A stretch of DNA of 64,000 nt from NCBI RefSeq assembly GCF_024346755.1, contig NZ_AP024862.1, positions 1,116,001 to 1,180,000 of the forward strand. Reading direction: 5' to 3'. This document shows, piece after piece, positions 13,665 to 60,943 of the stretch; the stretch's first letter is position 1; each line of letters opens with the position of its first letter. Made by a program: the position numbers and the translations under genes. The notes beneath the pieces were generated by a model, which worked only from the letters and a program-made list of their open reading frames with translations, did not search any database and had not been told where the DNA came from. The stretch is from Vibrio aerogenes (GTDB lineage: Bacteria; Pseudomonadota; Gammaproteobacteria; Enterobacterales; Vibrionaceae).

Positions 13665-13800
13665 TAATAAACAGGACAGGCACAACATCACCTTGCTGAA
13701 CCACGAATTGCAACCCCAATCACCTTGAAACCTATAGACATTTTCCTCATAACCGGCCACACTGACTCAATTGTCTGTTTATACATCTGTCACCCGTATC

Positions 13801-16911: not shown

Positions 16912-16987
16912 TTAGTCTATCTGCATCTTCTGGATGTACATGAAAAAAAACATAAAGTAAAAAGTCATAATGTCTACCTTCAAGAAT

Positions 16988-24421: not shown

Positions 24422-24490
24422 AGTATTTCCTCCATTGTTAGTTTTCTCTACTGTAGAGAAATTCCAGTTTCTTTGTAAGGAGGCACAATT

Positions 24491-24898
24491 TTGTCTGATA
24501 CGCACATAAATGTTCGTCCTACAGCAACACCCTTGACTCCCTGTGGCTCCAATGAGCATGAGGATTGTGGCTTGCGTATGATTCTTGATCGCTTAGGCGA
24601 GCAGTGGACTGTGATGACATTGGCAGAACTTTCCAGTGGCCCGAAACGTTATCGGGAAATTGAAAAGGCATTAGTTGGCATATCGCAGAGGATGATGACA
24701 CTGACACTACGAAGATTAGAACGTGATGGTTATGTTCTTCGACATGTTGAACCCACGATTCCTCCAAGCGTAACTTATGAACTATCCGCTCTCGGACATT
24801 CATTTTCGAATCAGGTTGCATCACTGGCGGAGTGGTGTAAGCAGCACAAGTCTGATTTAGAACACGCACGAGCTATTTTTGATGAGAAACACACTTAA
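24491..24898 (+). CDS. HxlR-family transcriptional regulator
   Basis: This 135-residue winged-helix protein starts at TTG 24491 with an ideal SD, AAGGAGG, 7 nt upstream. HxlR features are visible: PCGSNEHEDCGLRMILDRLG at the start (an N-terminal Cys followed by another), WTVMTLAELSSGPKRYREIE, the recognition helix ISQRMMTLTLRRLERDG, and the wing YVLRHVEPTIPPSVTYELS. Members sense electrophiles or oxidants through the N-terminal Cys and act as dimers. It is divergent from the NmrA-like oxidoreductase, and the 69-bp gap must hold both promoters and the operator. 24899-25000 beyond it contain a CCAG(G)CCC-TTC-GGGCTGG hairpin and no gene. Confidence 0.9.
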   Translation: MSDTHINVRPTATPLTPCGSNEHEDCGLRMILDRLGEQWTVMTLAELSSGPKRYREIEKALVGISQRMMTLTLRRLERDGYVLRHVEPTIPPSVTYELSALGHSFSNQVASLAEWCKQHKSDLEHARAIFDEKHT

Positions 24899-25066: not shown

Positions 25067-26770
25067 TTAAGCCATCACCAGTTCAGCCTGTTCAGAAACA
25101 TGATATTGCTGCGGCTGAGCCTGCCGCTCATCCACCACGATCTGTCCGTTTTCAAACTTCACCAGCTGATCCGCCAGATGGAAGTACCTGTCATCATGGC
25201 TGATCACCACCACCAGTTTATTCTGACGCTTCAGCTGCGGAATAATCTGCGTGTAGAAGATTTCCCGGAAACGGGGATCCTGATCCGCGGCCCATTCGTC
25301 GTACAGGCACACCGGCGTGTTCTCAATATAAGACATCAGCAGTGCCAGGCGTTTCTTCTGCCCCTGCGACATCGCCACAGAAGAGAATTTCCCGTCTTTT
25401 GACGTGACTTTATGCCCCAGCTCCAATTCCGTCAGATACCGGCCGATCACCTCATCACTTTCCAGCTCTCCTGCCGCATTCAGTACATGCTCGAACAGGT
25501 GGAAGTCTGAGAAAATGGTGGAAAACATCTGCTGATAATCGCTGATATCCACCGCATCATACACCGCCTGATCATCCAGCTGAATACTGCCCTGATCCGG
25601 CTGATATAAGCCAACCAGCAACTTGGCAAAGGTTGACTTGCCGCTGCCGTTCCCGCCGGTGAGAAAGACCGCTTCGCCGCGCCGGAACGTTGTATTCACC
25701 GGGCCGACATGAAACGTGTATTCATCCTCAAGATCAGATTGATACTCAAACACTAGATCACGGACCGCCAGTGTCGACCAGTCAGCCACCGAATCATCCA
25801 CCTGACGGGTCAGATCCGTCCGCCGTTCGAACTCATCCGGTTCACCCAGTTCCAGCCCTTCGATATTGCGGTAAGACGCCGAACAATCACTGAAACGGTT
25901 CATGGAATCCACCACACTTTGCAGCGGGGTCACCATATACAGAATCGTCAGCACAAACGTCACCACCACACCCAGTGGCACCTGCGGAAAATAAACTTGA
26001 CTGCCGAACACAATCACACCAATCACAAAAAAGACCAGCGTTGAGGCCATACTGCCCAGCATGGTGAAAATCAGCGACACCTTCACACTACGGTCACGAA
26101 TCACCGCGAAGTTCGGCTCCAGAATTTCATCATAAGTAAACCGGCGGCGACGGGCGTTAATCGTCAACTCTTTCACACCATCGACCAGGGTTTTCATGCC
26201 GCTGAACATATCATCTTCGTACTCTCTCAACCGCAGATAATGATGCAGGCCGCGGTTCAGAATCAGTTTAGAGACAAACATAATCAGCGCGATCAGTACA
26301 AACACCACGGTAAACAGCTGCCATGAGGTGTACACCATATATCCCAGACACAACAGCACCGTCACAAAGCTGTAAATGAAGCCGGGCAACAGCAGCAACC
26401 CATCAGACAGCTTCGACGCATCCGTTTTCATTGCTGCCATGATCCGGTGTCCGCCGATCTTTTCAATACTGGCATAACTGGTTGCGAGCAGACGCTTTGC
26501 CAGTGAATCACGAAACTCATAGACAATCCGCGCACTCAGTTTTGCCAGCAGATAACGGGACAACAGACTAAACAGCAATACCGCTGACACCGCGCCGACA
26601 AAGATCGGGAAAGCATACGGTCCGGGCGACCCGCCTGCACCGAGCTGACTGACCTGCATCGTAATAATTTTCAGCATCACAATCCCGGCCAGCGCCCCGA
26701 CCACACTCAACAGTGTCGCGCCAACAATCGACCATTTAAAGCGGATCAAAATAGATTTAAACATCTTCAT
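25067..26770 (-). CDS. Cyclic-peptide/lipopeptide export ABC transporter (PvdE/SyrD type), fused permease-ATPase
   Basis: This 567-residue half-transporter has an N-terminal membrane domain with about six segments (for example VGATLLSVVGALAGIVML, LLLPGFIYSFVTVLLCLGY, LVFFVIGVIVFGSQVYF). Its C-terminal ATPase has Walker A GGNGSGKST near residue 378, the signature MSQGQKKRLAL near 477, Walker B CLYDEWAADQDP near 498 and the switch His in VISHDD. This matches the single-gene exporters of pyoverdine precursor (PvdE) and syringomycin-type lipopeptides (SyrD), which work as homodimers in the inner membrane. It lies 51 bp after NRPS C in the same direction, so it is probably co-transcribed and exports the product. 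ATG 26764 (third codon) has better spacing from GAGGA than ATG 26770; either is possible. Confidence 0.92.
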   Translation of the reverse strand: MKMFKSILIRFKWSIVGATLLSVVGALAGIVMLKIITMQVSQLGAGGSPGPYAFPIFVGAVSAVLLFSLLSRYLLAKLSARIVYEFRDSLAKRLLATSYASIEKIGGHRIMAAMKTDASKLSDGLLLLPGFIYSFVTVLLCLGYMVYTSWQLFTVVFVLIALIMFVSKLILNRGLHHYLRLREYEDDMFSGMKTLVDGVKELTINARRRRFTYDEILEPNFAVIRDRSVKVSLIFTMLGSMASTLVFFVIGVIVFGSQVYFPQVPLGVVVTFVLTILYMVTPLQSVVDSMNRFSDCSASYRNIEGLELGEPDEFERRTDLTRQVDDSVADWSTLAVRDLVFEYQSDLEDEYTFHVGPVNTTFRRGEAVFLTGGNGSGKSTFAKLLVGLYQPDQGSIQLDDQAVYDAVDISDYQQMFSTIFSDFHLFEHVLNAAGELESDEVIGRYLTELELGHKVTSKDGKFSSVAMSQGQKKRLALLMSYIENTPVCLYDEWAADQDPRFREIFYTQIIPQLKRQNKLVVVISHDDRYFHLADQLVKFENGQIVVDERQAQPQQYHVSEQAELVMA

Positions 26771-26821
26771 TCCTCATTTATCTTCCGCTGCCGTTTCCGG
26801 CAACACGCAAGAACATCATCG

Positions 26822-29800
26822 TTAAATGGCCGCCTGGCCCAGAATTATCTCAGCCAACAGCGTCACATCCGGCGATTTCAGCAATGTGACATGATTCCCC
26901 GGACTATGGAAAATCTGCACCGATGGCATGAAAGACTGCCACTCCGGTTGCCGCGTATCCGGCACATCATGCGCCAGTAACAACCGGGCGGGTGTCTTCG
27001 GTAACGTCTCCGGCAGGTAACGGGTCCGGACATTAGCCGAAAATGACCGGTAAATCGCTGTCACTTCTTTGAGTGTGGTTCTCGCATGCATCAGGCCACT
27101 TTCAGTCAGGGCCAGATGCAAGCGCTGAAGCCGTGCTTCCGGTGCCATCGGTGCCAGCATGGCTTCAGTCAGACCCAGCGATTTGCCGCGCATCTCAAAC
27201 AAACGAATCAGCCACATCATGGTTTCAAGATTGGTATATTCCTCCTGACGTGGCGTCACCGGCGCACGCGAATCTGCCATCGTCAATGAAGCGACCTGAA
27301 TCCCCTTATCTTCCATCTGTTTGACCAGCGCCATCGCCACCCAGCCACCAAAAGAGTGTCCCAGTACATGGATTTCCCGCTGTTGCAGTCTTGGTGTTAA
27401 TGCCTGCAGATAAAATGCCGCCGCCGCTTCAACACTGGCATGCGGCACCCCATTGCCCCATAATCCACGGGGTTGCAACGCCAGCATCGTCTGTGTTTTC
27501 GGCATTGACTGAACCAGATCGACAAAGCTCAGCACATTATCGCCCGCGCCCGGAATACAGATGCACACCGGTTGTCCTGGCACCCCGGCCTGCAACGTGA
27601 CCACCGGCTCATAAGGCTGACCCGTTTGCTGACCGGATAACAAGCCTGATGAAGCGGCCTTCCGGCGACGGGCCACCGCTGCCGAAATCGCCTGTCCCAC
27701 ATGAGGCAAACAAGCCCCGGTGACCAGCTCAAAGTGCTCACCCGGTACACTTTCCACATGAATCTGTGCCGTATCCAGCACCTGATCCCAGCCCAGATAC
27801 AACTCACCCAGTGCAGATGGATTATCCTGCGCTGCGAACAAATCAATCTCAACCGGTAAAGGCAGGGCGTGATACTCCGCATTGAGGAAGTCTTTCTGAT
27901 GAATCAGCATGTTATGGAAATAGGTTTCACTCCAGCTGGCAGGCAAACATCCGGTGGCTTTGGCAATCCGGTAATCATCCTGCCAGTCACCGCTTTGCGG
28001 CAGATCAACCGTCTGTCCGCTTTGCTGCATCAGGTAGTTCACCATACCCCGGCTCAGTTCACGCATCATCGCCTGTCCGGACAGCGCTGGTCGCTGAATC
28101 AATCCCGGCTTCCAGCTGTCCAGCATGCCAAGGAATTCAACGGTCTGATCAAGTCCAAGCAGCTGAGCCGCAATTTCATACGCCACCACACCACCGGTTG
28201 ACCAGCCCAGCAAACGATACGGACCTTCCGGCTGTGTCCGGCGAATCATCTGAACATAGCGGGTTGCCATGTGCTGATAGGTTTTCAGGGAAGGCTGCAT
28301 TCTGTCTGGTGCGGACAGTCCATACACCGGGATATCCGCGTCAATGACGGCTGTTAAAGCCGGGCCGTATAACAGTTCACCACTGAATTCCGGCACAATA
28401 AACAACGGTGTCTGAGACCCGGTCGTCCGGAACGGAATCACCGGATCGGCCGCCAATGATGCAGCGGAAGAGGCAGTGATCACGCTCGCCAGTGACGATA
28501 AAACCGGCGCAGTGAATAAGGTCGCCAGATCCAGCCGGAAACCCTGCTTCTGCACTTCACTCACCAGACGAATCGCCAGCAGCGAATGCCCGCCCAGTTC
28601 GAAGAAGTGATCGTGACGACTCACCTGCGCCACACCCAGCAACTGCTGCCAGATCGCCGCCAGCTTCAGTTCCGTTTCACCCTGCGGCGCTTCATATGCA
28701 TGGCGGATTAACGCACTGTCATCCGGTTCGGGCAGTGCTTTACGGTTCACTTTACCATTCGGCGTCAGCGGCAGGCTCTCCAGCGCCACGTAGGCCGACG
28801 GCACCATATATTCTGGTAAACGCGCTGACAGTTCCGCTTTCACGGCTTCCGCACCAACGGCCTCATCACTGGTGTAATAACCCACCAGCTGCTTCGCCGC
28901 ACCAGTGCCACGGGCAATCACCACGGCTTCCTGAACGCCCCGGCAGTCTTGCAACGCCGAGCTGATTTCACCCAGCTCAACCCGGAATCCGCGGATTTTG
29001 ACCTGATCATCATTGCGGCCCTGATAGTCAATCGTCCCATCCGCCAGCCAGCAGCCCACATCGCCGGTGCGGTACATCATCGCATCCGCATCGTCGGCAA
29101 ACGGGTCGGCCATAAATTTCTCTGCCGTCAGTTCCGGGCGGTTGAGATAGCCCCGCGCCACCTGCACGCCACCGATATATAACTCACCCGCAACACCGAC
29201 CGGCACCGGCTGACCCTGTGCATCCAGCACGTACATCCGGGTGTTCGCCACCGGCGCACCAATCGACATCCGGTCTCCTTCAAGGTCCCGCGGACACGCC
29301 CAGGCCGTCACATCGACCGCCGCTTCCGTCGGGCCGTATAAATTATGCAGCGCCACATCCGGCAGTTGTTGCGTGGTTTTTCTCACCGCCGCCGCAGGCA
29401 ACGCTTCGCCACTACAGAACACCAGCCGCAGGCTGTGGCAGTCACCGGCCTCTGTCACTTCCAGGAAGGTTTGCAGCATCGGCGGCACAAAGTGCAGAAT
29501 CGTCACCTGACGCTGCTCAATCAGTGCTTTCAGATAATGTGGATCTTTGTGGCCTTCCGGCTTCGCCATCACCAGCGTTGAACCGGCCCACAAGCTACAG
29601 AAGAATTCCCACACCGACACATCAAAGCTGAACGGTGTTTTCTGCAACACCACATCGGCCGGGCCGAAGCCGTAATCCTCTTTCATCCAGCTCAGGCGGT
29701 TGACCACGCCCCGGTGCTCGTTCATCACGCCTTTCGGGTTGCCGGTCGAGCCGGAGGTGTAAATGATGTACGCCAGATGGCGCGGCGTCAGACCGGTCCG

Positions 29801-32800
29801 GTTCAGGTTGTGTGTCTCTTCAGTCAGCCACGGACGCTCTGCCGTGATATCAACCACCGTGGTCGCTGAAGGGATATCACCCAGCCGTGGCTGTAATTCA
29901 GCCGTGGTCACCACCACCACCGGTTGACTGTCGGCCAGCATGTACGCCAGCCGCTCCTGCGGATAACCCGGATCCAGCGGCACATACGCGCCTCCGGCTT
30001 TGAGCGTCGCCATCAGGGCGACGACCAGATCGCAGCTGCGCTCCAGCGAGACGGCAACACGACTGTCGGGACAGACACCCTGCGCGACCAGCCAGCGGGC
30101 AAGCTGGTTAGCCTGCTGATTGAGCTGGTGATACGTCAGTGACTGCTGCTCACAGACCACGGCGGTGGCGTGCGGCTGCGCAGCCACGGTTTGTTCGAAC
30201 AGCTGGTGAATACACTGCTGCTCAGGGAATGGTGTCTGCGTCTGGTTAAAGCCTGCCAGCACCTGAAAGCGCTCGCTTTCAGGCAGGAGATTCAGCTGGC
30301 TGATCAAGGTGCCCTGCTGCGGTTGTACCAACGCTGCAACCAGCGCTTCCAGTGCCTGAGTCATCATCATCGCGACCCGCTCACAGCCAATCTGCGCATC
30401 AATTTTCAGGTCAAGACAGAATCCCTGTCCGGCGATATCATCCACCGAGAGGCCAACCGGATAATTGGTCCGTTCTTCGCCGGATAACATCTCCACGCCC
30501 TGCCAGACGGTTTCGGCCTGTTCGGATGATGCCGGTGTATGGCTGCCCTGATAACGATAATTCAACAACGACGTAAATAAAGGCATTTGTGCCGCCACGC
30601 CGCTGCACTGCTGTACCATCGACAAGGGCGCGTGTTCGTAATTCAGCAGTTCAGCCAGCCGGGTATGTGTTTCCTGCACCGCACCAGCCACCGTCATGTC
30701 ACCCAGCGATAAGCGCAGTGGCAGCGTATTGAGGAACATGCCCAACGCCCGGTCAGCCCCATCGCCGCCCGCCATCCGGCCAAATAATACGGTGCCGAAT
30801 ACCACATCATCCCGGCCGGTTGCCGCCCGGACAACCATGCCCCAGGCCAGATGGAACAGACTGGCAGCACTCACACCCAACTCACGGGCCTGTTCACGCA
30901 GCTGTCGTGCCAGTGCGTCATCCAGCGGATAACGCGCGGAATCAATCTGCTGCCCGTGACTTTGTGTATTCAGCAGATTAAACGGTGCACAGGGCGTATC
31001 AATATCCGATAACTGTTGACGGAAATAACTCAGATAAGCGTCACGATCCATCTCCTGAGAGGCTTGCGCAACAAAATTCCGGAACGGTACCGGTGCCGGT
31101 AAAGAGGCCTCCTGCCCGGTCAGATACGCCTGAATTTCCGCCAGTACCAGCTCCAGTGTCGTGTGATCCATACTCAGGTGGTGCATTTGCAAACACAGGA
31201 ACCAGCGTTGACCCGCAGGTTCTGCCACCTGCCAGGCAGCAATCATCGGCGCACGTGTGATCTCAACCCGCACTTTTGACGGTGCAAACCGGCGCTGCAA
31301 TGCGTCAGCAATATCCACCGCATCCACATCGTCAAACAACAACGCATCGGCTGTGATTTCCGTCACCTGCAGCGGCGCATCCCGCCACACCACCTGCTGT
31401 GCTTCATTCAGCCCGTCCCACACCACGGCGGTCCGCAAAATATCGTGACGCCGAATCACCGCCTGCATTGCGGTCAGAAATTCGTCCAGACGCGGCTTAC
31501 TGTCAAAGCCCAGAATCGCGGGTGTCACATAAGGATCGTTGTCAGGTTGCAGCAGATGATGGAACAAAATGCCTTCCTGCAACGGGGCCAGCGGATAAAT
31601 ATCCTGAACATTGGCAGCCCCACCGGGGACAGTCGCTGTAATGCAGTCAATCTCTGCCTGTGACAAGGTGGTCAAAGGCAACATCTCCGGTGTAATCGCG
31701 GCACACTGCGCCGGGATCAGATTCTCCGGAATCTGAATCCCACCCGCCGGGTCTGCGGATAACACACCAGCCAGCGAAGCAATCGTCGGATGATTAAACA
31801 GTGAGCGGGCATCGAGATGTCTGCCGTGCTGACGCAGTTTTTCAATCAACTGCACAGCCAGCAGTGAGTGCCCGCCCAGCTCAAAGAAATGATCCTGCCG
31901 TCCGGCACGGGAAAGCCCTAACAGTTCACACCAGAGCTGTGCCAGTAACTGTTCGGTTTCTCCCTGCGGCGCTTCATAGGCCTGCCGGGCAAATGCCGAT
32001 TCATCCGCGACCGGCAGCGCTTTGCGGTCCACTTTTCCGTTCGGTGTCAGCGGCATTTCATCCAGCCTGACATAAGCGGCCGGGACCATATAATCCGGCA
32101 ATGTTTCACTCAGCTGAGATTTCAGGGCCGACACGTCGACAGCGGATTCACCATCACCTGAGATAGTCATACCATCAGATATAGTTATACCACCGGATGC
32201 AGCAATATAATAAGCCACCAGCTGCGGATGACCAGCAGCGCTTTGCTGTGCTTCCACAACAGCTTCTTCAACTCCCGGACACTGCTGCAAAGCCGTTTCA
32301 ATTTCACCCAGCTCAATCCGGTAACCACGGATCTTCACCTGATTGTCGCAGCGCCCCTGATAATGGATCAGTCCATCCGCGCCCCAGCAGCCTAAATCAC
32401 CGGTGCGGTACATGCGCTGGCCCGGTTCTCCGGTCAAGACGTCATCGGTGAAAGGCTCATCAGCAAAAAACGGATCCGGCAGAAAAGCCGCCTGTGTTAA
32501 ATCCGGCCGGTTCAGGTAGCCTCGGGCAACACCAACCCCACCGAGATAAATTTCCCCCGTCACACCCAGCGGCACCGGCTCACCCGACGGGTCAAGAATG
32601 TAAACTTTGCTGTTCGGCCGGGGCAACCCGATCGGCGGCTGCCCCTCAAAAGCCTGATGCAGCGCGCAGGTTGTCCCCCAAATCGTGGTTTCCGTCGGGC
32701 CGTAGCCATTGTAGACATCGCGCCCTGGCTGAATCCATGGCTCAATCACGCTGCGGGTAATCGCTTCCCCGGCCGTCAGCAAAAAGGTCAGATCCGGCAA

Positions 32801-48032: not shown

Positions 48033-48052
48033 CGTGTACTGCCTTTTTTATT

Positions 48053-51000: not shown

Positions 51001-54000
51001 GTTCATCGGAAACAGATTCACCTTCCAGCCAGGTCAGCGGGAATCCCTGATGCACATCGGCGACAATCTGCACCGGCACCCCATCCCGGTCGATGAAATG
51101 CGTCCGCAGCGGTGCATGGCGGGTCACGATCTGGTTCAGTGCCCGTTGCAGCGCATCAATATCCAGTGCGCCGGTCAGCCGGACGCCGCCCTGAATGACA
51201 TAAGTAACCGTAGCCGACGGTTCCATTTTTGACAAAAACCACAGACGCTGTTGAGCCAGTGACAATGGCGGCATGGTGCCATCCGCCAGCGGCACAATCT
51301 CCGGTAATATCGCGGCCGGTTCACCGCTTTCCTGTCCGTGTGACAGCGCGTTTGCCAGCTCAGACAGAACCGGCCGGGCAAACAGTGTTGTCAGCGGCAG
51401 TTCTGCGCCAAGCGCTGAACGAATCCGGGATGCCAGCTGTACGGCCAGCAGCGAATGCCCGCCCAGTTCGAAGAAGTGATCGTGACGACTCACCTGCGCC
51501 ACACCCAGCAACTGCTGCCAGATCGCCGCCAGTGTCTGTTCCGTGTCACCCTGCGGCGCTTCGTATTCATGACGGATTAACGCACTGTCATCCGGTTCGG
51601 GCAGTGCTTTACGGTTCACTTTACCATTCGGCGTCAGCGGCAGGCTCTCCAGCGCCACGTAGGCCGACGGCACCATATACGCGGGTAAACGCGCTGACAG
51701 TTCCGCTTTCACGGCTTCCGCACCAACGGCCTCATCACTGGTGTAATAACCCACCAGCTGCTTCGCCGCACCAGTGCCACGCGCCATCACCACCGCTTCC
51801 TGTACCCCGCTGCAATCCTGCAACGCCGAGCTGATTTCACCCAGCTCGACCCGGAATCCGCGGATTTTGACCTGATCATCATTGCGGCCCTGATAGTCAA
51901 TCGTCCCATCCGCCAGCCAGCAACCCACATCGCCGGTGCGGTACATCATCGCATCCGCATCTTCGGCAAACGGGTCGGCCATAAATTTCTCTGCCGTCAG
52001 TTCCGGGCGGTTGAGATAGCCCCGCGCCACCTGCACGCCACCGATGTACAGCTCACCCGCAACACCGACCGGCACCGGCTGACCCTGTGCATCCAGCACG
52101 TACATCCGGGTGTTCGCCACCGGCGCACCAATCGACATCCGGTCTCCTTCAAGGTCCCGCGGACACGCCCAGGCCGTCACATCGACCGCCGCTTCCGTCG
52201 GGCCGTATAAATTATGCAGCGCCACATCCGGCAGTTGTTGCGTGGTTTTTCTCACCGCCGCCGCAGGCAACGCTTCGCCACTACAGAACACCAGCCGCAG
52301 GCTGCCGCAGTCACCAGCCTCTGTCACTTCAAGGAAGGTTTGCAGCATCGGCGGCACAAAGTGCAGAATCGTCACCTGACGCTGCTCAATCAGTGCTTTC
52401 AGATAGTGCGGATCTTTATGCCCTTCCGGTTTGGCCATCACCAGCGTCGCTCCCGACCAGAGTGTGGCGAAGAACTCCCACACCGACACATCAAAGCTGA
52501 ACGGCGTTTTCTGCAATACCACATCGGCCGGGCCGAAGCCGTAATCCTCTTTCATCCAGCTCAGGCGGTTGACCACGCCCCGGTGCTCGTTCATCACACC
52601 TTTCGGGTTGCCGGTCGAGCCGGAGGTGTAAATGATGTACGCCAGATGGCGCGGCGTCAGGCCGGTCCGGTTCAGGTTATGTGTCTCTTCGGTCAGCCAC
52701 GGACGCTCTGCCGTGATATCAACCACCGTGGTCGCTGAAGGGATGTCGCCCAGCCGCGGCTGCAATTCAGCCGTGGTCAGCACGACCACCGGCTGACTGT
52801 CGGCCAGCATATACGCCAGCCGCTCCTGCGGATAACCCGGATCCAGCGGCACATACGCGCCTCCGGCTTTGAGCGTCGCCATCAGGGCGATGACCAGATC
52901 GCAGCTGCGCTCCAGCGAGACGGCAACACGACTGTCGGGACAGACACCCTGCGCGACCAGCCAGCGGGCAAGCTGGTTAGCCTGCTGATTGAGCTGGTGA
53001 TACGTCAGTGATTGCTGCTCACAGACCACGGCTGTCGCGTGCGGCTGCGCGGCCACAGTTTGTTCGAACAGCTGGTGAATACACTGCTGCTCAGGGAATG
53101 GTGTCTGCGTCTGGTTAAAGCCTGCCAGCACCTGAAAGCGCTCGCTTTCCGGCAGGAGATTCAGCTGACGCAGCGGTGCTTCGGTGGTCTGTATCAACAC
53201 TGCGGCCAGTTCATTCAGTGCCTGACTGAACATCGCTGCTACGCGCGCTGAACCAATCCGCACATCCGCCTGAACTTCAGCAGAGAAACTGCCGTCGGCA
53301 ACATCGTTAATCGTCAGAGTCAGCGGATAGTTGGTGTTCTCTTCCACAAAGACCACCGCACTGCGAAGTGCTTCTGCGCCCGATTCAGTGGTCTGTTGTG
53401 AATGACCGCCCTGATAACGGTAATTCATCATCGAGTTAAATAAGGTTGCCTGACGGCTGACGCCACTGCACTGCTGTGCAAGGGCCAGTGACGCATGTTC
53501 ATGATCAAGCAGTTCCGCCAGTCGCTGCCGGGTCTGAAGCAGTGCCTGATCCGCGGTTAACTCTCCGGGAGACAGACGCAGCGGCAGCGTATTGAGGAAC
53601 ATACCTAAAGTCCGGTCGGCACCTTCTCCACCCGCCATCCGGCCAAACAATACGGTGCCGAAAACTACGTCATCCTGTCCGGTGGCAACACGCGCCACCA
53701 TCGCCCAGGCGAGATGGAAAATCACAGCGGGACTCATTTTGCGCTGCCGCGCCAGCTCACGCAGCTGCCGGGCCAGCTGATCGTCCAGATTCAGATGCGT
53801 GGTCAGGATCGGCTGATCTGCTTGCCGCTCAGCGATTCCAAACGGAACACACGCTTCATCCCGGTCCGATAAAAGCTGCCGGAAATAAGCCTGATGACTT
53901 TCACGATCCGCGTCTGACGTCGTCTGTGCAATGAAGTTGCGGAACGGCAGCGGTGTCGTCAGTTCATCGGTCCGGCCTGACAGGTGCAGCATCACTTCTT

Positions 54001-57000
54001 CTGCCAGCAGCTCGATCGTGGTGTGGTCGTTACACAGGTGATGCAGTAAGAAGCACAGCAGCCAGCGGTCCTGTTGCGGATCAGCGACTTTGTACGCTTC
54101 AATCATTGGCGCCTGCCGGACATCCATCCGGGTATGCGCCGGGTCGAAATGGGTCTGTAATGCACTGAGGATATCGTCACCCGGCGCAAAATCCAGACGC
54201 GATAAACGCACCGGTGCTTCGCGCCAGACCACCTGAACCGGTGTTTCCAGCCCTTCCCAGACAACGGCGGTACGCAAAATATCATGCCGCGAAACGACAT
54301 GTTGCAGTGCCGCGACAAACGCATCCACACTGGATTCATCTTCAAAGGCCTGAATGAAGCGGGTCACATACGGGTCACCTTGAGGCTGCATCAGATGATG
54401 GAACAGAATCCCTTCCTGCAGTGGTGCCAGCGGGTAAATATCCTGAATATTGGCAGCGCCGCCAGCCACGGTCTTGCAAACCGAATCTATCTCGGCCGGT
54501 GTCAGCTCAACCAGCGGTAACATCTCCGGCGTGATGCGCCGGCAGTCCGCGGGAATCAGGTTTGGCGGCACATCCACCGCCGGTGAAGATGGCAACGTTG
54601 TCAGGACAGACGCCAGTCCGGCCAGGCTGTTTTGTTCAAACAATTCCCGGATGGCCAGATGCCAGCCCTGCTGACGCAGGCGCTCAATCAGCAGCACCGC
54701 CATCAGGGAGTGACCGCCCAGAGCAAAGAAATTGTCATGACGACCCACCTGTTCAACATGCAACAACGATTGCCAGATCGAAGCAAGACATTGCTCTGCT
54801 TCGGTTTGCGGCGCTTCATAGTCATGATGAATCAACGCAGAATCATCTGGCTCGGGTAAGGCTCTGCGGTTGACTTTTCCGTTCGGTGTCAGCGGCAGCG
54901 CATCCAGCAGCACATAGGCCGCGGGCACCATGTAATCCGGCAGACGCTCTGCCAGTGAAGCTTTAATGGTTTCCGGTGTCAGTGATTGTGCCCGGTCACG
55001 CAGGGTGTAATAACCCACCAGACGTTTTTCTGCGCCCTGACCACTGGCGATCACAACCGCTTCATGCACTCCCGGACAGCCTTGCAGTGCTGAGCCAATT
55101 TCACCCAGCTCAACCCGGAAGCCGCGGATTTTGACCTGATCGTCATTACGGCCCTGATATTCAATAGTGCCATCTGCCAGCCAGCGACCGACATCGCCGG
55201 TCCGGTACATCCGGGCCTGCGGCTGAGCTGAGAATGGATCCGGCAGGAATTTCTCTGCGGTCAGTTCAGGCCGGTTGAAGTAGCCTCTGGCGACCTGAAC
55301 CCCACCAATATAAAGTTCACCGGCAACGCCCACCGGCACCGGTTGTGCCTGTGCATCCAGCACATACATCCGGGTATTGGCTACCGGCGCACCAATCGAC
55401 ATCCGGTCTCCTGCCAGATCTTTCGGACAGGCCCATGCCGTAACATCGACCGCGGCTTCCGTCGGACCATATAAATTATGCACTTCAGCCTGTGGCATAC
55501 GCTGCGCCGCTTTGCGAACCACGGCTGCGGGCAGTGCTTCCCCGCTACAGAAGACCAGGCGGAGACTCTGACAGTCCGCCGGAGAAATGACTTCAAGGAA
55601 AGTTTGCAGCATCGGCGGCACAAAGTGCAAAATTGTCACCTGCTGCTGTTCAATCAGTGCTTTCAGATACAGTGGATCTTTGTGTCCTTCGGGCTTCGCC
55701 ATCAGCAGCGTGGCACCCGCCCACAACGGACAGAAGAATTCCCACACTGACACATCAAAACTGAACGGCGTCTTCTGCAACACCACATCATCGGTGCTGA
55801 AGCCGTAATCATCTTTCATCCAGCTCAGCCGGTTGACCACGCCCCGGTGCTCGTTCATCACGCCTTTCGGATGACCGGTCGACCCGGAGGTATATATCAT
55901 GTAAGCCAGATGACGGTTATTCAGCTCAGGCAGATTAAGATTTTCCGGCGCTTCATCAAGCCACGGACGGGCTGCGGTCATATCAACCACAACGGTTTGC
56001 TCAGGAATGTCACCCAGACGGGTTTGCAGGTCTGCGGTGGTCAGCACGACGACCGGCTGACTGTCGGCCAGCATATACGCCAGCCGTTCCTGCGGGTATC
56101 CCGGATCCAGCGGTACATAAGCGCCGCCCGCTTTCAGCGTCGCCATCAGTGCCACCACCAAGTCGCAGCTCCGCTCCAGCGACACCGCGACACGGCTATC
56201 GGGACAGACACCCTGCGCCACCAGCCAGCGTGCGAGCTGATTGGCCTGCTGGTTCAGTTCCCGGTAAGTCAGTGTCTGCTGCTCACACACGACGGCTGTG
56301 GCATCCGGCTGACGACATACCGTCTGTTCGAACAGCTGGTGTACACACGTGTTATCAAGCAGCTGAGCGTCCGGTTCCGGGAGCTGCGTGTCAGGGAATG
56401 ACGTTTGAGTCTGATTGAATCCGTCAATCACCAGCGCATACTCAGCCTCATCAAGCATGGGGAGCTGACAGAGCGGCGATTCCGGCATGGCGGTCATGGC
56501 GGTCAGCAGCTGTTGCCAGTAATTCAGATAACGCTGAACGGTTGGCTCATCAAAGAGTGCCGTTGAATAATTGAGCGTCGCAACCAGGGTATTTCCCGAC
56601 TCAAAAATTTGCAGGTTCAGGTCAAACTGGGCTGTCGTCACTTCCGTTTCAACGTCTGAGCACACCAGCCCCGGTACGTTAATGTCCGCTTCCGGCAGAT
56701 TCTGTAGTCCGAACATCACCTGAAAGACCGGCGAGTGAGACAGACTGCGGGTCGGAGAAACCGCTTCAACCACCTGTTCAAACGGCAGATCCTGATATTC
56801 CTGTGCGGTCAGTACCGTCTCTTTCACCTGTGCCAGTAAACCAGCTGTCGTCAGTGAGTTTTCCAGACCTATCCGGATCGCCTGTGTATTGACAAACATC
56901 CCGATCAGCGATTCCAGTTCGGTATGTGTCCGCCCGGCGACCGGCGTGCCAATCACCACATCATCCTGATTCGCCAGCCGTCCCATCAAGGCGGCCCAGC

Positions 57001-60000
57001 CGGACAATAAGGTCATAAACAGCGTACAGCGATTCTGCTGACTCAGGTCATGCAGGGCAGTGGTCAGTGAAGCATCCAGAGTCCGGGTGATATTGGCGCC
57101 GGAAAACTGCTGCGTTTTAGGCCGGGGGCGATCTGCAGGCAGCGTCAGGCAATCCGGAATCCCCTGAAGCTGACGGGTCCAGTACTGTTGCTGATCCTGT
57201 AGCGTTTCCCCCCGGAGATAGTCGCGCTGCCATAACGCATAGTCACCATATTGAACGGGCAGTGCCGGGAGTGGATCCGGCTGCTCCTGAACATATGCGG
57301 CATACAGCTGGCTGACTTCGCGGATTAAAATGCCGACGGACCAGCCATCGGAAATCATGTGATGCATTGCAAGACGCAGCCGGTGAGTCTGTTCATCCAG
57401 CCGGATCAATTGTGCCTGAATCAGCGGCCCGGTTGATAAATCAAAGACAGGCGGGAAAACAGAAGCAGTGTCGGAATCTCCGTCAATCACCGACAGCATC
57501 ATCCCCTGATTTTCAGGGCCGGTTTGCTGAACCGGCACACCATCGCGGACTTCAATATAACTGCGCAACACTTCATGACGCTTGACGATGTGGTCGAGTG
57601 CCTGCCGGAGTGCCGGAATATTCAGCTGCCCGTCAAGCACCATGCTGCCAACCATATTATACGCGGCGGTGGCTTCCGGGTGGAAACGGGACAGCAACCA
57701 CAGGCGCTGTTGTGCCATAGACAGAGGTGGCGGCGTCGCTGACTGACGGGGCTGAATTGCCGGCATGCCATGGATTGAGGTTGCGGCTCTCACGGCATCC
57801 GCCATATCACATAACACCGGCTGTGCAAAAATGGTCGCCAGCGCCAGTTCCTGGCCGAATTCATCCCGGACTCTGGCAATCAGTTGCATCGCAAGGAGTG
57901 AATGGCCGCCCAGTTCAAAGAAATGATCATTCCGGCCAATCTGTTCCATCTCAAACAGTTGCTGCCAGATTTCAGCCAGACGCGATTCCGTACCGCTCTG
58001 CGGCGCTTCATAGCTGCGGCTGACCAGCACATTCATCTCCGGCACCGGCAGCCCTTTACGATCGACTTTGCCATTCGGGGTCAGCGGAAAAGCTTCCAGC
58101 GCCACATAGCCGACCGGCACCATATAATCGGGTAACCGCGCCCGCAGCTGCGTTTTCAGTTCACTGGTGTCAATTTCTGCTGACGTGGTGTAGTAGGCAA
58201 CCAACACCGGCTCGCCACCGCGGATATCAGCAGCACTGACCACCGCATCTTCAATCCCGTCATATGCCAGTAACACGGATTCAATCTCACCCAGCTCAAT
58301 CCGGTATCCGCGGATTTTGACCTGAAAGTCACAACGGCCCAAGCACTCAATTGCACCATTAGGATGCCAGCGGCCTAAATCGCCGGTCCGGTACATGAGC
58401 GCGCCGGGCTGGTCAGAAAACGGGTCCTCCACAAACGCTGCTGCCGTTAAATCCGGACGGTTCAGATAACCATGAGTCACGCCGTCACCCGCGATGCAGA
58501 TTTCACCGATCGCCCCAACCGGAACCTGCCTGTGCTGTGCATCCAGCAGGTAAATCCGGGTATTGGCAATTGGCTGGCCAATCCATACACAAGGGTCGGT
58601 TTCACGCATATCCCATGTCGCAGACCAAACCGTGGTTTCGGTAGGTCCATACATGTTACGAAGACGGCCAACCCGGCTGAGAATTGAATCCGCCAGTGAT
58701 TTAGGGAACGATTCACCGCCGATCAGCCCAATCAGCTGAGGCGATCCCTGCCATGACGAAGCGAGTAGTAATTTCCACGTCGCGGGGGTGGCCTGAAACA
58801 GCGTAATATCATGCGTGGTCAGATATTGTCCCAGCGCATCGCCGTCCCGGCTCAGATTTTTTCCGGCAAGATGCAGCTCACCGCCGCAGATTAGCGGCAG
58901 ATAAATTTCCAGCACATGGATATCAAATGAAATGGTGGTCACGGCCAGCAGGCGGGTGTCCTGAGTGACATGATTCTGCTGTTGCTGGCTGAGAAGGAAG
59001 TTCATGACGGACCGGTGAGGCACCATCACCCCTTTCGGATTCCCGGTTGAACCTGAAGTATAAATCACATAAGCCAGCTGTTCTGCATCCGGCGCAGGAA
59101 CGTCCGGATTCGTGTCAGGCAGCAGACTGAACCATGGCAAATCTTTTTTCAGATCGATGACATCCGGCTCAGAAAGCTGAGTGCCGATGACACTTTCAAG
59201 CACCATCGAACTATCAGAAATCAGGACCACAGGCTGGCTGTCAGCCATCATATATTGCAGACGCTGTGCAGGAAAAACAGGATCCAGCGGGACGTAAGCC
59301 GCACCGGATTTGAGGGTTGCCAGCATGGCAACAACCATGTCACAACTTCTCTCCACGGCAATCGCCACATAACGTCCGGGACAGGCACCCTTTTCGATCA
59401 GTGCATGTGCCAGCTGATTGGCTCTGGCATTGAGTTCACCATACGACAAGGTGCTGCCATGGCAGATAACCGCGGTCGCTTCAGGGCGAAGCATCGCCTG
59501 CCGTTCAAATAATTGCTGAATACACGCTGTTTTCGGGTACGCCATCGCCGCCCCCTGAAACTGCGTCATGATTTGAGCGCGTTCTTCTTCAGACAGAATG
59601 TCCGTCCGGCAGGGAAACGGATTGTCTGAGTATGCAATCTGAGTTAGGAAGTGGTGAAAACGGTGGATATGGCGTTGTAAGTCGGTCTGTTGATACAAAG
59701 CTGCATTGGCATTGAAAATCAGATTGAATCCCAGCTCAGCGCCCCAGTCGTAGATATTGAATGAGAAGTCATCCACCGGACCAATCGCCGTATAGGTAAT
59801 CGCTGATGAGACATCACCATAATTCAGACGGTAACCGGAGGGAATATAGTTAATAATGGTCGAAAACCAGCGGTCTTCCGTGCCTTGTTGCCCCGCAAGC
59901 TGACGTAAATCTTCTGCCGGAAAACGTGAACGGCGGGATGTCGCATTGACCTGAAGTTTGACTTGTTCAAGCAGTTCCTCTAACGGCATCTCAGGACTGA

Positions 60001-60943
60001 CATGAATCCCCAGCGGCAGTACATTTGCCAGCAACCCGGTCGTCCGCCTCAGGGAACGGCTCATCCGGCCACTGTGGATAAACCCGGTCATCAGTGAGGT
60101 TTCACCCGTCATCAGATGCAGATAGACAGCAGTTAACGCAATCACCAGTGTCGACAACTGGCTGTCATAGCTTTTAGCCAGTGTCTGAAGCCGGTGATAT
60201 ATCTCCGGCTCAATTTTCAGCTGCTCAGATAATACATCCGTACAGGCTGTCACCGGCACAGAAGCCATACTGACGGCGTGATAATTCTGGCTCATCTGAT
60301 CGAGCCAGAATGCCTGATCCCGCGGAAAAGCCGATGATGCCCGGTAAGTCTGCTCCGCTTCGACCAGTGCTGAAACGCCAAGAATGTCGCTGGGTGGGAC
60401 CGGTACACCGGCAACCAGTGCTGAATAAATTTCAGCCAGCCGGGTGTTAAACAGCATAAAGCCGTATCCGTCGGCGGCAATATGGTGGGTACTGCAATAT
60501 AAATAAAACCGGGAGGGGCCGGATTTCAGAAGCGCGATATCGAATAAAGGTTGTTTCTGATCAAGGGGAAGCGGGAAGTCAGTGCGTGATTTCAGCCATC
60601 GCCTGGCGGCTTCATCAGGTTCGGGTTCTCCGGTGAAATCCACCAGAGAAAAGTGCCAGTCCGTAAACGGTTCAACACGCTGATATAAATGACCTGCCTC
60701 ATAGAATGCACTGACTCTGAGTGTTTCAGACTCATGAATGGCCTGTCTCGCGGCAGCTTCCATCAGTTCTGGCTGAACATATCCCTGAATACTGGCAAAA
60801 CCTGCAACTTTCAGCACTTTGCCGGCAGCATCGGGCATCACATGATGAGCGAACCAGATGCCTTGTTGAGGTGTTGATAATGGAAACACAATCGACGGGG
60901 GAGTTTCCTGATTTTTACAGAAACTTTGACTTTCTTTATACAT
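48053..60943 (-). CDS. NRPS A: four modules, C(starter-type)-A(Gly)-T-C-A(Ser)-T-C(dual E/C)-A(Ser)-T-C-A(Val-like)-T, initiating synthetase
   Basis: This 4296-residue protein opens with an EntF/starter-type C domain (FPLSTPQQGIWFAHH near 20; HHIAADG near 155), so the first Gly is probably N-acylated; fatty acyl or aryl cannot be told apart. A1 code DILQLGMVWK is almost the standard Gly code. T1 is near 1015. C2 (HHMISDG near 1194) leads to A2 with DVWHFSLVDK, identical to the EntF Ser code. T2 is near 2077. C3 has HHLMQPQGD near 2174, an exact dual E/C motif, and HHLCNDH near 2304, so Ser2 should be D. A3 repeats the Ser code. T3 is near 3164. C4 (HHIITDG near 3351) leads to A4 with DAMWMGCTFK, nearest to Val codes but with C at a usually Gly position. 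T4 is near 4241. The C-terminus FDVSDLMDLAE is acidic and may dock to the basic N-terminus of NRPS B. AAGTTGGTGT (60957-60948) provides a GGTG-type ribosome-binding site. First gene of the operon A-B-C-exporter. Confidence 0.95.
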   Translation of the reverse strand: MYKESQSFCKNQETPPSIVFPLSTPQQGIWFAHHVMPDAAGKVLKVAGFASIQGYVQPELMEAAARQAIHESETLRVSAFYEAGHLYQRVEPFTDWHFSLVDFTGEPEPDEAARRWLKSRTDFPLPLDQKQPLFDIALLKSGPSRFYLYCSTHHIAADGYGFMLFNTRLAEIYSALVAGVPVPPSDILGVSALVEAEQTYRASSAFPRDQAFWLDQMSQNYHAVSMASVPVTACTDVLSEQLKIEPEIYHRLQTLAKSYDSQLSTLVIALTAVYLHLMTGETSLMTGFIHSGRMSRSLRRTTGLLANVLPLGIHVSPEMPLEELLEQVKLQVNATSRRSRFPAEDLRQLAGQQGTEDRWFSTIINYIPSGYRLNYGDVSSAITYTAIGPVDDFSFNIYDWGAELGFNLIFNANAALYQQTDLQRHIHRFHHFLTQIAYSDNPFPCRTDILSEEERAQIMTQFQGAAMAYPKTACIQQLFERQAMLRPEATAVICHGSTLSYGELNARANQLAHALIEKGACPGRYVAIAVERSCDMVVAMLATLKSGAAYVPLDPVFPAQRLQYMMADSQPVVLISDSSMVLESVIGTQLSEPDVIDLKKDLPWFSLLPDTNPDVPAPDAEQLAYVIYTSGSTGNPKGVMVPHRSVMNFLLSQQQQNHVTQDTRLLAVTTISFDIHVLEIYLPLICGGELHLAGKNLSRDGDALGQYLTTHDITLFQATPATWKLLLASSWQGSPQLIGLIGGESFPKSLADSILSRVGRLRNMYGPTETTVWSATWDMRETDPCVWIGQPIANTRIYLLDAQHRQVPVGAIGEICIAGDGVTHGYLNRPDLTAAAFVEDPFSDQPGALMYRTGDLGRWHPNGAIECLGRCDFQVKIRGYRIELGEIESVLLAYDGIEDAVVSAADIRGGEPVLVAYYTTSAEIDTSELKTQLRARLPDYMVPVGYVALEAFPLTPNGKVDRKGLPVPEMNVLVSRSYEAPQSGTESRLAEIWQQLFEMEQIGRNDHFFELGGHSLLAMQLIARVRDEFGQELALATIFAQPVLCDMADAVRAATSIHGMPAIQPRQSATPPPLSMAQQRLWLLSRFHPEATAAYNMVGSMVLDGQLNIPALRQALDHIVKRHEVLRSYIEVRDGVPVQQTGPENQGMMLSVIDGDSDTASVFPPVFDLSTGPLIQAQLIRLDEQTHRLRLAMHHMISDGWSVGILIREVSQLYAAYVQEQPDPLPALPVQYGDYALWQRDYLRGETLQDQQQYWTRQLQGIPDCLTLPADRPRPKTQQFSGANITRTLDASLTTALHDLSQQNRCTLFMTLLSGWAALMGRLANQDDVVIGTPVAGRTHTELESLIGMFVNTQAIRIGLENSLTTAGLLAQVKETVLTAQEYQDLPFEQVVEAVSPTRSLSHSPVFQVMFGLQNLPEADINVPGLVCSDVETEVTTAQFDLNLQIFESGNTLVATLNYSTALFDEPTVQRYLNYWQQLLTAMTAMPESPLCQLPMLDEAEYALVIDGFNQTQTSFPDTQLPEPDAQLLDNTCVHQLFEQTVCRQPDATAVVCEQQTLTYRELNQQANQLARWLVAQGVCPDSRVAVSLERSCDLVVALMATLKAGGAYVPLDPGYPQERLAYMLADSQPVVVLTTADLQTRLGDIPEQTVVVDMTAARPWLDEAPENLNLPELNNRHLAYMIYTSGSTGHPKGVMNEHRGVVNRLSWMKDDYGFSTDDVVLQKTPFSFDVSVWEFFCPLWAGATLLMAKPEGHKDPLYLKALIEQQQVTILHFVPPMLQTFLEVISPADCQSLRLVFCSGEALPAAVVRKAAQRMPQAEVHNLYGPTEAAVDVTAWACPKDLAGDRMSIGAPVANTRMYVLDAQAQPVPVGVAGELYIGGVQVARGYFNRPELTAEKFLPDPFSAQPQARMYRTGDVGRWLADGTIEYQGRNDDQVKIRGFRVELGEIGSALQGCPGVHEAVVIASGQGAEKRLVGYYTLRDRAQSLTPETIKASLAERLPDYMVPAAYVLLDALPLTPNGKVNRRALPEPDDSALIHHDYEAPQTEAEQCLASIWQSLLHVEQVGRHDNFFALGGHSLMAVLLIERLRQQGWHLAIRELFEQNSLAGLASVLTTLPSSPAVDVPPNLIPADCRRITPEMLPLVELTPAEIDSVCKTVAGGAANIQDIYPLAPLQEGILFHHLMQPQGDPYVTRFIQAFEDESSVDAFVAALQHVVSRHDILRTAVVWEGLETPVQVVWREAPVRLSRLDFAPGDDILSALQTHFDPAHTRMDVRQAPMIEAYKVADPQQDRWLLCFLLHHLCNDHTTIELLAEEVMLHLSGRTDELTTPLPFRNFIAQTTSDADRESHQAYFRQLLSDRDEACVPFGIAERQADQPILTTHLNLDDQLARQLRELARQRKMSPAVIFHLAWAMVARVATGQDDVVFGTVLFGRMAGGEGADRTLGMFLNTLPLRLSPGELTADQALLQTRQRLAELLDHEHASLALAQQCSGVSRQATLFNSMMNYRYQGGHSQQTTESGAEALRSAVVFVEENTNYPLTLTINDVADGSFSAEVQADVRIGSARVAAMFSQALNELAAVLIQTTEAPLRQLNLLPESERFQVLAGFNQTQTPFPEQQCIHQLFEQTVAAQPHATAVVCEQQSLTYHQLNQQANQLARWLVAQGVCPDSRVAVSLERSCDLVIALMATLKAGGAYVPLDPGYPQERLAYMLADSQPVVVLTTAELQPRLGDIPSATTVVDITAERPWLTEETHNLNRTGLTPRHLAYIIYTSGSTGNPKGVMNEHRGVVNRLSWMKEDYGFGPADVVLQKTPFSFDVSVWEFFATLWSGATLVMAKPEGHKDPHYLKALIEQRQVTILHFVPPMLQTFLEVTEAGDCGSLRLVFCSGEALPAAAVRKTTQQLPDVALHNLYGPTEAAVDVTAWACPRDLEGDRMSIGAPVANTRMYVLDAQGQPVPVGVAGELYIGGVQVARGYLNRPELTAEKFMADPFAEDADAMMYRTGDVGCWLADGTIDYQGRNDDQVKIRGFRVELGEISSALQDCSGVQEAVVMARGTGAAKQLVGYYTSDEAVGAEAVKAELSARLPAYMVPSAYVALESLPLTPNGKVNRKALPEPDDSALIRHEYEAPQGDTEQTLAAIWQQLLGVAQVSRHDHFFELGGHSLLAVQLASRIRSALGAELPLTTLFARPVLSELANALSHGQESGEPAAILPEIVPLADGTMPPLSLAQQRLWFLSKMEPSATVTYVIQGGVRLTGALDIDALQRALNQIVTRHAPLRTHFIDRDGVPVQIVADVHQGFPLTWLEGESVSDELAPFCPEFNLASGPLVKGQLIHVRDTEHWLRLAMHHIITDGWSMGIFTRELSELYAAFSQGQADPLPPLTIQYGDYAAWQQTHMQGDVLQRQQQYWTEQLKDTPACLTLPTDRPRPAAQDYRGASIDVTLDAALTSRLKTFSQRHGCTLYMTLLTGWATLMHRLSGQDEVVIGSPVAGRTRAELEGLIGMFVNTQAIRVNLSQQPDPAALIEQVKATALQAQSHQDLPFEQVVEAVAPVRSMSYSPIFQVMFSLQNMPQETRQLNGVTLSALPEQMTTAQFDLSLILRESGQHMPSGQISGGQITGFLNYATALFDEATVQRYLGYWVAILEGMVSEPALPVGQLPMLSETEHHMLTESVNQTQSDYPRHLCVHQRFEQQAAAHPQAIAVIDGEHQYDYDTLNRMANRLAGHLRAKGVQAGQFVAICLERSAELMIAELAILKCGAVYVPLDTHVPAERLHYILEDCAAKLILVHEDAATQHAPLLQSLHQTGAEMLAVTQAVLHAGDGENIPATVDSESAAYVMYTSGSTGQPKGVVVPHQAIHRLVTDCGYADFRPTDRIALAANPAFDATTMEIWAPLLNGGAVVVIDQTTLLDPTLFAAALKQHEVSILWMTVGLFNQYAALLGDTLKQLRYLMTGGDVLDPEVIRQVLNHHAPQHLLNCYGPTESTTFALTHQIDALDDDAISVPIGRPIGNTRVYILDPYGQPVPAGVTGELFIAGDGLALGYLNQPEQTQARFIPDPFVADPQARMYQTGDLGYRRADGVIEFVGRNDFQVKIRGFRIELGEIEACIREVEGIELVVVQAPKMADGSRLLAAYYVSTNGTSATEAGSGSVGAEQLRAHVAGRLPDWMVPSAWIPLASLPLNPNGKVDRKALPEPDEAAVIRQVYEAPQGELEEVIAEIWQELLGVEQVGRHDSFFELGGHSLLAAQLGSQIRDELELEVPLTELFSHPTLAEFSKRVAYIGLAEFDVSDLMDLAE
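51444..53168. repeat. Near-identical Ser A-T segment, copy in NRPS A module 3
   Basis: Partner of 28575-30299. The boundaries fall at the T-domain LGGHSLL and just after the LNLLPESERFQVLAGFNQ linker, so the shared unit is one A-T didomain. The adjoining C domains and the C-terminal parts of T differ. Confidence 0.85.

Follow-up and report, generated by a model that had tools for sequence, protein, structure and literature searches.

A ten-module NRPS line in Vibrio aerogenes with a predicted capped decapeptide product and probable copying of adenylation domains between its modules

Introduction

Which peptide would the large non-ribosomal peptide synthetase (NRPS) operon in this DNA of Vibrio aerogenes make, and how are its ten adenylation (A) domains related to each other and to those of other vibrios? 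The stretch analyzed, called the window below, is 64 kb long (G000:C2:1116001-1180000) and comes from a genome of 5.37 Mb in 3 contigs. An earlier note on the window had proposed a ten-module line for an N-acylated decapeptide with D residues at positions 2, 5 and 9. Lines of comparable layout are familiar from Pseudomonas lipopeptide synthetases, which have a starter condensation (C) domain, dual epimerase/condensation (E/C) domains without separate E domains, tandem thioesterases (TEs) and SyrD/PvdE-like export. In the passages of PMC11546977 consulted, arthrofactin synthetase is described with a starter C domain and dual E/C domains, and passages of a review of Vibrionaceae compounds name the unnarmicins, ngercheumicins, solonamides and others as non-ribosomal depsipeptides of this family (PMC3225927).

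Results

Three collinear genes encode ten complete modules

The three NRPS genes and the exporter gene (Table 1) are open frames without internal stops. By their coordinates, NRPS A and B are separated by 20 bp, B and C overlap by 8 bp, and 51 bp lie between C and the exporter gene, in agreement with the tight spacing first reported for the NRPS genes. Motif scans (A3, carrier [T] and C motifs) found four C-A-T modules in A, four in B and two in C, and each of the ten possesses a C motif, A3, a code, A10 and a T motif, as expected of a modular NRPS. Likewise, NCBIfam models matched four adenylation-domain stretches in NRPS A and four in NRPS B, while Pfam found 2 Condensation, 2 AMP-binding, 2 PP-binding and 2 Thioesterase stretches in NRPS C. 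The claim of a ten-module line encoded by three collinear genes was therefore borne out, as was that of tandem TEs, since the two Thioesterase stretches at the end of NRPS C are accompanied by two GxSxG motifs. The exporter scored 380.3 bits against TIGR01194, 'cyclic peptide export ABC transporter' (cut-off 286.2), confirming its assignment to the PvdE/SyrD type; its closest named relatives are from V. ruber, Vibrio sp. MEBiC08052 and V. xiamenensis.

Table 1. Positions of the features within the window
Feature	Position	Strand	Evidence
NRPS A, modules 1-4: predicted Gly - Ser - Ser - Val-like	48053..60943	-	ORF, 4296 aa; module motifs; aligned codes
NRPS B, modules 5-8: predicted Val-like - aromatic-like (DAFTIAAIWK) - Thr - Val-like	35064..48032	-	ORF, 4322 aa; module motifs; aligned codes
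NRPS C, modules 9-10: DAFTLAGIWK (same family as module 6) - predicted Ser, TE-TE	26822..35071	-	ORF, 2749 aa; Pfam; aligned codes
Cyclic-peptide (PvdE/SyrD-type) export ABC transporter	25067..26770	-	567 aa; TIGR01194 above cut-off; Pfam ABC_tran, ABC_membrane
C1, starter-type condensation domain, HHIAADG, Phe at acyl-gate position	59570..60886	-	PDB matches 7c1k/7c1h/7c1p, then EntF
C3, dual epimerase/condensation type, N-terminal HHLMQPQGD: predicted D-Ser2	53135..54445	-	motif; identity matrix
C6, dual type, HHLLQQDGD: predicted D-residue 5	43383..44630	-	motif; identity matrix
C10, dual type by clustering, altered motif HHLLQPDND: D-residue 9 probable	30269..31609	-	motif; identity matrix
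Thioesterase TE1, GWSTGG	27686..28408	-	Pfam; motif; PDB matches
Thioesterase TE2, GHSFGG	26915..27562	-	Pfam Abhydrolase_6; motif
Putative homogenized tract, module 3 copy, starting in the C-A linker and ending shortly after the carrier serine	51446..53167	-	96% nt identical to module 10 copy
Putative homogenized tract, module 10 copy	28577..30298	-	segmentation, boundary residues

The protein ends, read by eye, look charge-complementary, the tail of A being acidic and the head of B basic, the tail of B basic and the head of C acidic, which fits the order A-B-C; in relatives with the same type of line these putative docking ends are conserved. The operon has a G+C content of 56% vs 38-46% in its flanks and in neighbouring stretches. 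In the genome we found two ACPS-family matches, one of them in a 223-aa frame, the size expected of an Sfp-type activating enzyme. A search of the genome for an MbtH-like protein found none; many NRPSs need no such partner. Taken together, the features read directly from the DNA (the order of the genes, their modules and codes, the C classes, the tandem TE and the exporter family) make it likely that the three genes form a complete assembly line for the predicted capped ten-residue peptide.

Adenylation codes and predicted substrates

Specificity positions were taken from a MAFFT alignment of the A domains, the final K being set rather than read. Codes 1-5 were DILQLGMVWK, DVWHFSLVDK, DVWHFSLVDK, DAMWMGCTFK and DVMWLGGTFK, and codes 6-10 were DAFTIAAIWK, DFWNIGMVHK, DAMWLGGTFK, DAFTLAGIWK and DVWHFSLVDK. 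All ten equal, letter for letter, the codes that had been picked out by eye. The Gly, Ser, Val and Thr assignments follow what we take to be the meanings in the usual code tables. Since the A6 code differs at only 2 of 10 positions from what we take to be the Phe code of GrsA (DAWTIAAICK), our best guess for the A6 substrate is Phe or a related aromatic residue. Among the PDB entries matched by the A6 sequence are two Phe-activating enzymes, tyrocidine synthase 1 and gramicidin synthetase 1, but several other synthetases match as well, some with higher scores, and for this reason the Phe reading stays a guess. The A9 core is 62% identical to that of A6, which places A9 in the A6 family and suggests that X9 is probably related to X6. 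The PDB matches of A6 and A9 were also considered as proof of substrate, a use in which they failed to settle either one.

A starter-type C1 suggests an N-terminal acyl cap

In an identity matrix of the ten C domains C1 stands alone, with 21-24% identity to C2-C10. Its matches among solved structures were, best first, 7c1k, 7c1h and 7c1p, followed by EntF, CDA peptide synthetase entries and ObiF1. Entry 7C1H and its companions represent the starter domain of the rhizomide synthetase RzmA, according to the parts of PMC7804268 consulted, and RzmA is thus the best structural match of the window's C1, the comparison covering the C1 domain alone. The starter-type assignment accordingly stands, and by its domain class C1 likely confers an acyl cap.

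We then considered the nature of this cap. In RzmA, a change of R148 to G turns a C2 acyl chain into one of C8 or C10, and bulkier residues at this gate position lead to shorter chains (PMC7804268, in part). The residue aligned with R148 of RzmA is Phe in the window and in six relatives described below (G130, G133, G204, G063, G062 and G156), and EntF is the next best match of C1 after RzmA, suggesting that the cap may not be a fatty acid. By analogy these observations weakly point to a short or unusual acyl group. A short or aromatic cap, on a product that would not be a classical surfactant lipopeptide, is nevertheless a reading to which we give slightly less than an even chance, because a single gate residue tested in RzmA/HolA may not predict chain length in a distant domain, and because the gate position holds S, S and G in G125, G220 and G105, whose predicted peptides differ from that of the window. 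As a separate observation, the C1 motif reads DHITTDG in all five V. ruber-like genomes shown (G133, G204, G063, G062 and G156), with D for the first histidine and the second histidine kept.

Dual-type C domains predict D residues

Dual E/C domains are marked by an extra N-terminal motif, HH[IL]xxxxGD. Three domains of the line, C3, C6 and C10, form one class at 57-63% mutual identity (C10 being 57% identical to C3 and to C6), and the six others, C2, C4, C5, C7, C8 and C9, are ordinary domains sharing 51-71%. The dual-type domains thus follow modules 2, 5 and 9, as proposed. The extra HH motif is intact in C3 and C6, making D configuration at residues 2 and 5 well supported by domain type, whereas in C10 its G is replaced. 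The C10 motif is altered across the ten-module type: the window and G130 have HHLLQPDND, G133 has HHILQKDRD, and the other four (G136, G204, G063 and G062) all have HHILQKESD. The G is thus missing in 7/7 genomes of this type read, the eighth (G156) having runs of N at the site. Of the three D residues originally called, those at 2 and 5 were upheld; that at 9 is probable, and weaker, because it derives from class membership of C10 while the extra motif is altered. The absence of the motif G from all seven genomes could also mean that C10 is a dual-type domain without epimerase activity, leaving residue 9 in the L form in an otherwise unchanged line. We consider this unlikely, given that C10 clusters with C3 and C6 and retains both histidines and the final D.

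With the codes correct, a starter-like C1, dual-type C3, C6 and C10, TEs and an exporter in place, the collinear decapeptide prediction is supported. Its chemistry (which substrates are used, their stereochemistry, the acyl cap, how the chain is released and its export) is deduced from sequence, and would run as follows. C1 would acylate the glycine, perhaps with a short or unusual group, and the ten modules would add Gly1-Ser2-Ser3-Val4-Val5-X6-Thr7-Val8-X9-Ser10, with an aromatic residue, Phe or a similar one, as the probable X6 and a related residue as the probable X9. The dual C domains would turn residues 2, 5 and probably 9 to the D form. Release by the tandem TEs would give a linear peptide or a lactone closed via the side chain of a Ser or Thr, to be exported by the PvdE/SyrD-type ABC transporter.

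Relatives of the line occur in several Vibrio species

We searched 227 Vibrio genomes with the exporter. Matches at E <= 1e-60 were present in 40 genomes, and 13, the window's own included, carried an exporter at least 45% identical. NRPS-side stretches were examined for 12 relatives, 11 of which have NRPS genes beside the exporter, several with other predicted peptides; in G023 there was no NRPS ORF within the 40 kb examined beside the exporter. The closest relative, G130, has ten C domains in the same order at 80-89% identity and keeps 9/10 A assignments, the exception being module 8, whose A core is replaced and carries the code DAMFLGVTYK. Four relatives, G133, G204, G063 and G062, have codes for Gly-Ser-Ser-Val-Val-Gly-Ser-Val-X-Ser. 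In V. ruber (G136) the draft contig begins within the NRPS genes, and the codes give (missing)-Ser-Gly-Val-Val-Ser-Ser-Val-X-Ser; this genome has an extra dual-type C domain ahead of the seventh residue. G156 yielded six A domains only, its sequence being interrupted by N runs. At position 9, one code site has P instead of T in G130 and in the five V. ruber-like genomes read, a reading that took in G156 and V. ruber itself. A different peptide, Ala-Thr-Ser-Leu-Thr-Val-Leu-Ser-Ser, is read from the codes of G125, G220 and G105, the first gene of G105 being split over three ORFs. V. xiamenensis (G227) has three A domains in a stretch at a contig start.

An order-wide draw of 394 genomes, which contained none of the 12 Vibrio relatives with a match, gave exporter matches at E <= 1e-140 only in the window's genome and in G383, a member of another family of the order with 15 A domains in the stretch taken. 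Among plasmids, megablast with 24.9 kb of the NRPS genes returned short fragments in three records, none covering 80%, and tblastn with the exporter found no match at E <= 1e-100. The few kb upstream of the line, with a chemotaxis gene, are common to the window and G130 and absent from the V. ruber-like group, whose genomes share their own set of upstream genes, indicating that the line occupies a different location in each group.

Ser and Gly A domains are mostly closest to another module within the genome

For 45 domains, drawn from the modules for Ser, Gly and Val in six genomes (the window, G130, G133, G204, G063 and G062), we compared the distance to a same-specificity module within the genome with the distance to the same-position domain of another genome. 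G130 contributed only Ser domains (its Val set is broken) and the window has no Gly pair; G136 and G156 were left out as incomplete. The same-genome copy was nearer for 30/45 Acore and 30/45 Asub regions, for 5/45 T domains and for 0/45 C domains. By substrate, the Acore wins were 20/22 for Ser, 6/8 for Gly and 4/15 for Val. The margin was at least two points in only 19 of the 30 (Ser 12, Gly 6, Val 1), an effect of the close relationship between G063 and G062; without G062 the counts were 16/18, 4/6 and 6/12, respectively, and every Ser or Gly win was by two points or more. Same-genome likeness is thus strong for Ser, clear in some genomes for Gly, and weak for Val. Within the window, Acore 3 and Acore 10 are 98% identical to each other and 89-90% identical to their G130 counterparts, while module 2 is 90% identical to its G130 counterpart vs 84% to its own copies.

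These findings make it probable that A domains for the same amino acid have been copied repeatedly between modules of one genome in this Vibrio family. Near-identical repeats can also arise in assembly, and the G156 record has five N runs here, as expected from collapsed repeats, while the V. ruber record G136 is a draft with a contig start inside the NRPS genes. An assembly artefact is very unlikely as the explanation for the near-identical Ser and Gly domains, however, since G000, G130, G133, G204, G063 and G062 are assembled in 2-3 contigs and the copies are mostly 93-99%, not 100%, identical in DNA.

Tract ends and code-changing replacements

The extent of the copied stretch was estimated by fitting two changepoints to codon-aligned DNA of 49 same-genome pairs. 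A tract of at least 93% identity was found in 28/34 Ser/Gly pairs, with left ends 160-210 codons before motif A3, in the C-A linker, and right ends 391-427 codons after A3, just past the carrier serine. The six remaining Ser/Gly pairs were two in the window and two in G130 (77-80%), the 1/6 pair of G133 (77%) and the 3/7 pair of G204, which the fit split into 88% and 98%. Of the 15 Val pairs, only the four that join modules 4 and 8 (in G133, G204, G063 and G062) had a tract of 96% identity or higher, running from about A3 to 350 codons after it.

The left end is partly forced where the paired C domains differ in class; in same-class pairs (3/10 and 2/7) it lies at the same place or up to ~40 codons earlier. 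The right flank is short because the fit reached no further than 440 codons. In the module 3/7 pairs, identity over this flank is still 67-100% (98% in the split G204 pair), indicating that the copied stretch there runs further into the carrier domain; both points argue against a sharp right joint. In unfitted profiles of the seven Ser/Gly pairs shown, identity falls to about 50-77% by 400 codons.

We also compared genomes at positions where the code has changed. At module 8, the window and G130 are 81% and 77% identical outside a 54% tract extending from -187 to +217 codons around A3, and the code changes from DAMWLGGTFK to DAMFLGVTYK, which is presumably Ile-like. At position 3, V. ruber and G133 are 81% and 85% identical outside a 55% tract from -200 to +367, and Ser has become Gly; here the near-identical repeats of the draft record could have been misjoined. 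These two replacements have their left joint in common. At position 6 of V. ruber (Ser for Gly) the left end is similar and the right end less clear, and for the changes between the window and G133 at positions 6 and 7 divergence was too high to place the ends. Of three control positions without a code change, position 9 gave fairly even identity, position 5 (V. ruber vs G133) a 96% block from -7 to +323 with flanks of 79% and 90%, and position 3 (G133 vs G062) a short dip. Identity is therefore not flat even where the code is unchanged.

Flanking genes and other loci of the genome

A Pfam scan of 17 selected flanking ORFs, the upstream side being the one ORF to the window end, found no regulator. 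The only possible tailoring gene among them encodes an NmrA-like protein (23627-24559). This gene and a DUF7919 gene, both beyond the exporter, were considered as parts of the cluster and dropped, as neither had a match at the 12 relative loci, which in G130 took in 14.3 kb counted from the end of the exporter.

PvdE belongs to the cyclic-peptide exporter family. That membership and the other NRPS loci of the genome are all that would favour a peptide siderophore, a reading that we reject as scarcely credible, since none of the ten codes, by their usual meanings, suggests hydroxyornithine or hydroxyaspartate, no iron-ligand residue is among the predicted amino acids, and iron-uptake genes are absent from the 17 flanking ORFs scanned.

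The genome has 34 Condensation-family matches in all. A small NRPS at 5173-10248 (-) of the window has the order C-A-T-C-T, ending in a C-T pair without A or TE, and its code is DAWFLGNVVK, which we take to be Leu; the same C-T ending is found at a locus near G000:C2:1281482-1289182 (L059). Another locus (L056, around G000:C2:1090722-1095128) encodes an NRPS of two modules, both with Leu-type codes, that has a dual-type C domain and one TE motif. Further NRPS genes lie at G000:C2:721721-753848 and other places, one frame being 4897 aa long, and a second exporter, 31% identical, lies at C2:726884-728419. The rest of the window includes an RHS-repeat protein running off its edge (2-4934, -) with two DUF4123 proteins adjoining, likely a polymorphic-toxin locus; a filamentous-haemagglutinin repeat protein with a C-terminal Ntox43 domain, resembling contact-dependent inhibition systems (19130-21973, -); and two HEPN/nucleotidyltransferase-type proteins, 13771-14679 (+) and 22108-22986 (+), flanking transposase genes at 15755-18202.

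Discussion

We know of no member of the Pseudomonas cyclic lipopeptide group with the order Gly-Ser-Ser-Val-Val-X-Thr-Val-X-Ser. The window's line resembles the arthrofactin-type synthetases of that group in its starter C, dual E/C domains, tandem TEs and SyrD/PvdE-like export; in contrast to them, it has a Vibrio host, Phe at the acyl gate (R148 in RzmA) and no LuxR-type regulator among the flanking ORFs scanned. Full-text literature searches by peptide, hosts and codes, in a collection with few subscription papers, listed no matching peptide, and a text search for six of the code strings found them in no paper. The main text of a paper on wild-rice Vibrio (PMC12625758) contains no NRPS or gene-cluster terms, and 'lipopeptide' occurs only in the references of one on V. 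gazogenes and aflatoxin (PMC10516221). The passages of the Vibrionaceae review consulted describe no peptide of this composition, the unnarmicins having four residues vs the ten predicted here (PMC3225927). With the line intact, close relatives in several Vibrio species and the product absent from the literature searched, the line is a tractable target for compound discovery.

Recombination of A domains is already a known process. In the portions of the published studies consulted, most recombination events hit parts of Acore and left Asub untouched (PMC8097286), breakpoint hotspots lie between the C and A domains and on both sides of the pocket (PMC7486941), and intragenomic A-domain recombination is described, with gene conversion and concerted evolution mentioned as a complication (PMC9205934). 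The Vibrio family resembles these cases in that A domains are exchanged without the C domain, with C/A breakpoints and within a genome (PMC8097286, PMC7486941, PMC9205934, each in part). It differs in that Ser/Gly exchange runs through Asub into the carrier domain, as opposed to the untouched Asub of the consulted part of PMC8097286, a paper whose main text lacks the terms 'gene conversion', 'homogeniz', 'concerted' and 'Vibrio'. To this the Vibrio family adds replication within one line, together with tracts that continue past Asub into the carrier domain; a literature search on gene conversion and concerted evolution of A domains listed a single paper, and the pattern may have been reported before.

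Taken together, these observations may describe a natural shuffling of A units, in which a ~1.7 kb unit, starting in the C-A linker and ending just beyond the carrier serine, is copied time and again between modules of a genome, keeping same-substrate A domains alike, while replacements that use the same left joint change the product. We regard the case for this as evenly balanced. If it is true, the unit would offer an evolution-tested pair of fusion points for NRPS engineering. The family also provides replicated natural evidence on the joints, a right one inside the carrier domain included, at which A domains can be exchanged without obvious loss of the line, a matter of practical interest to those who engineer NRPSs.
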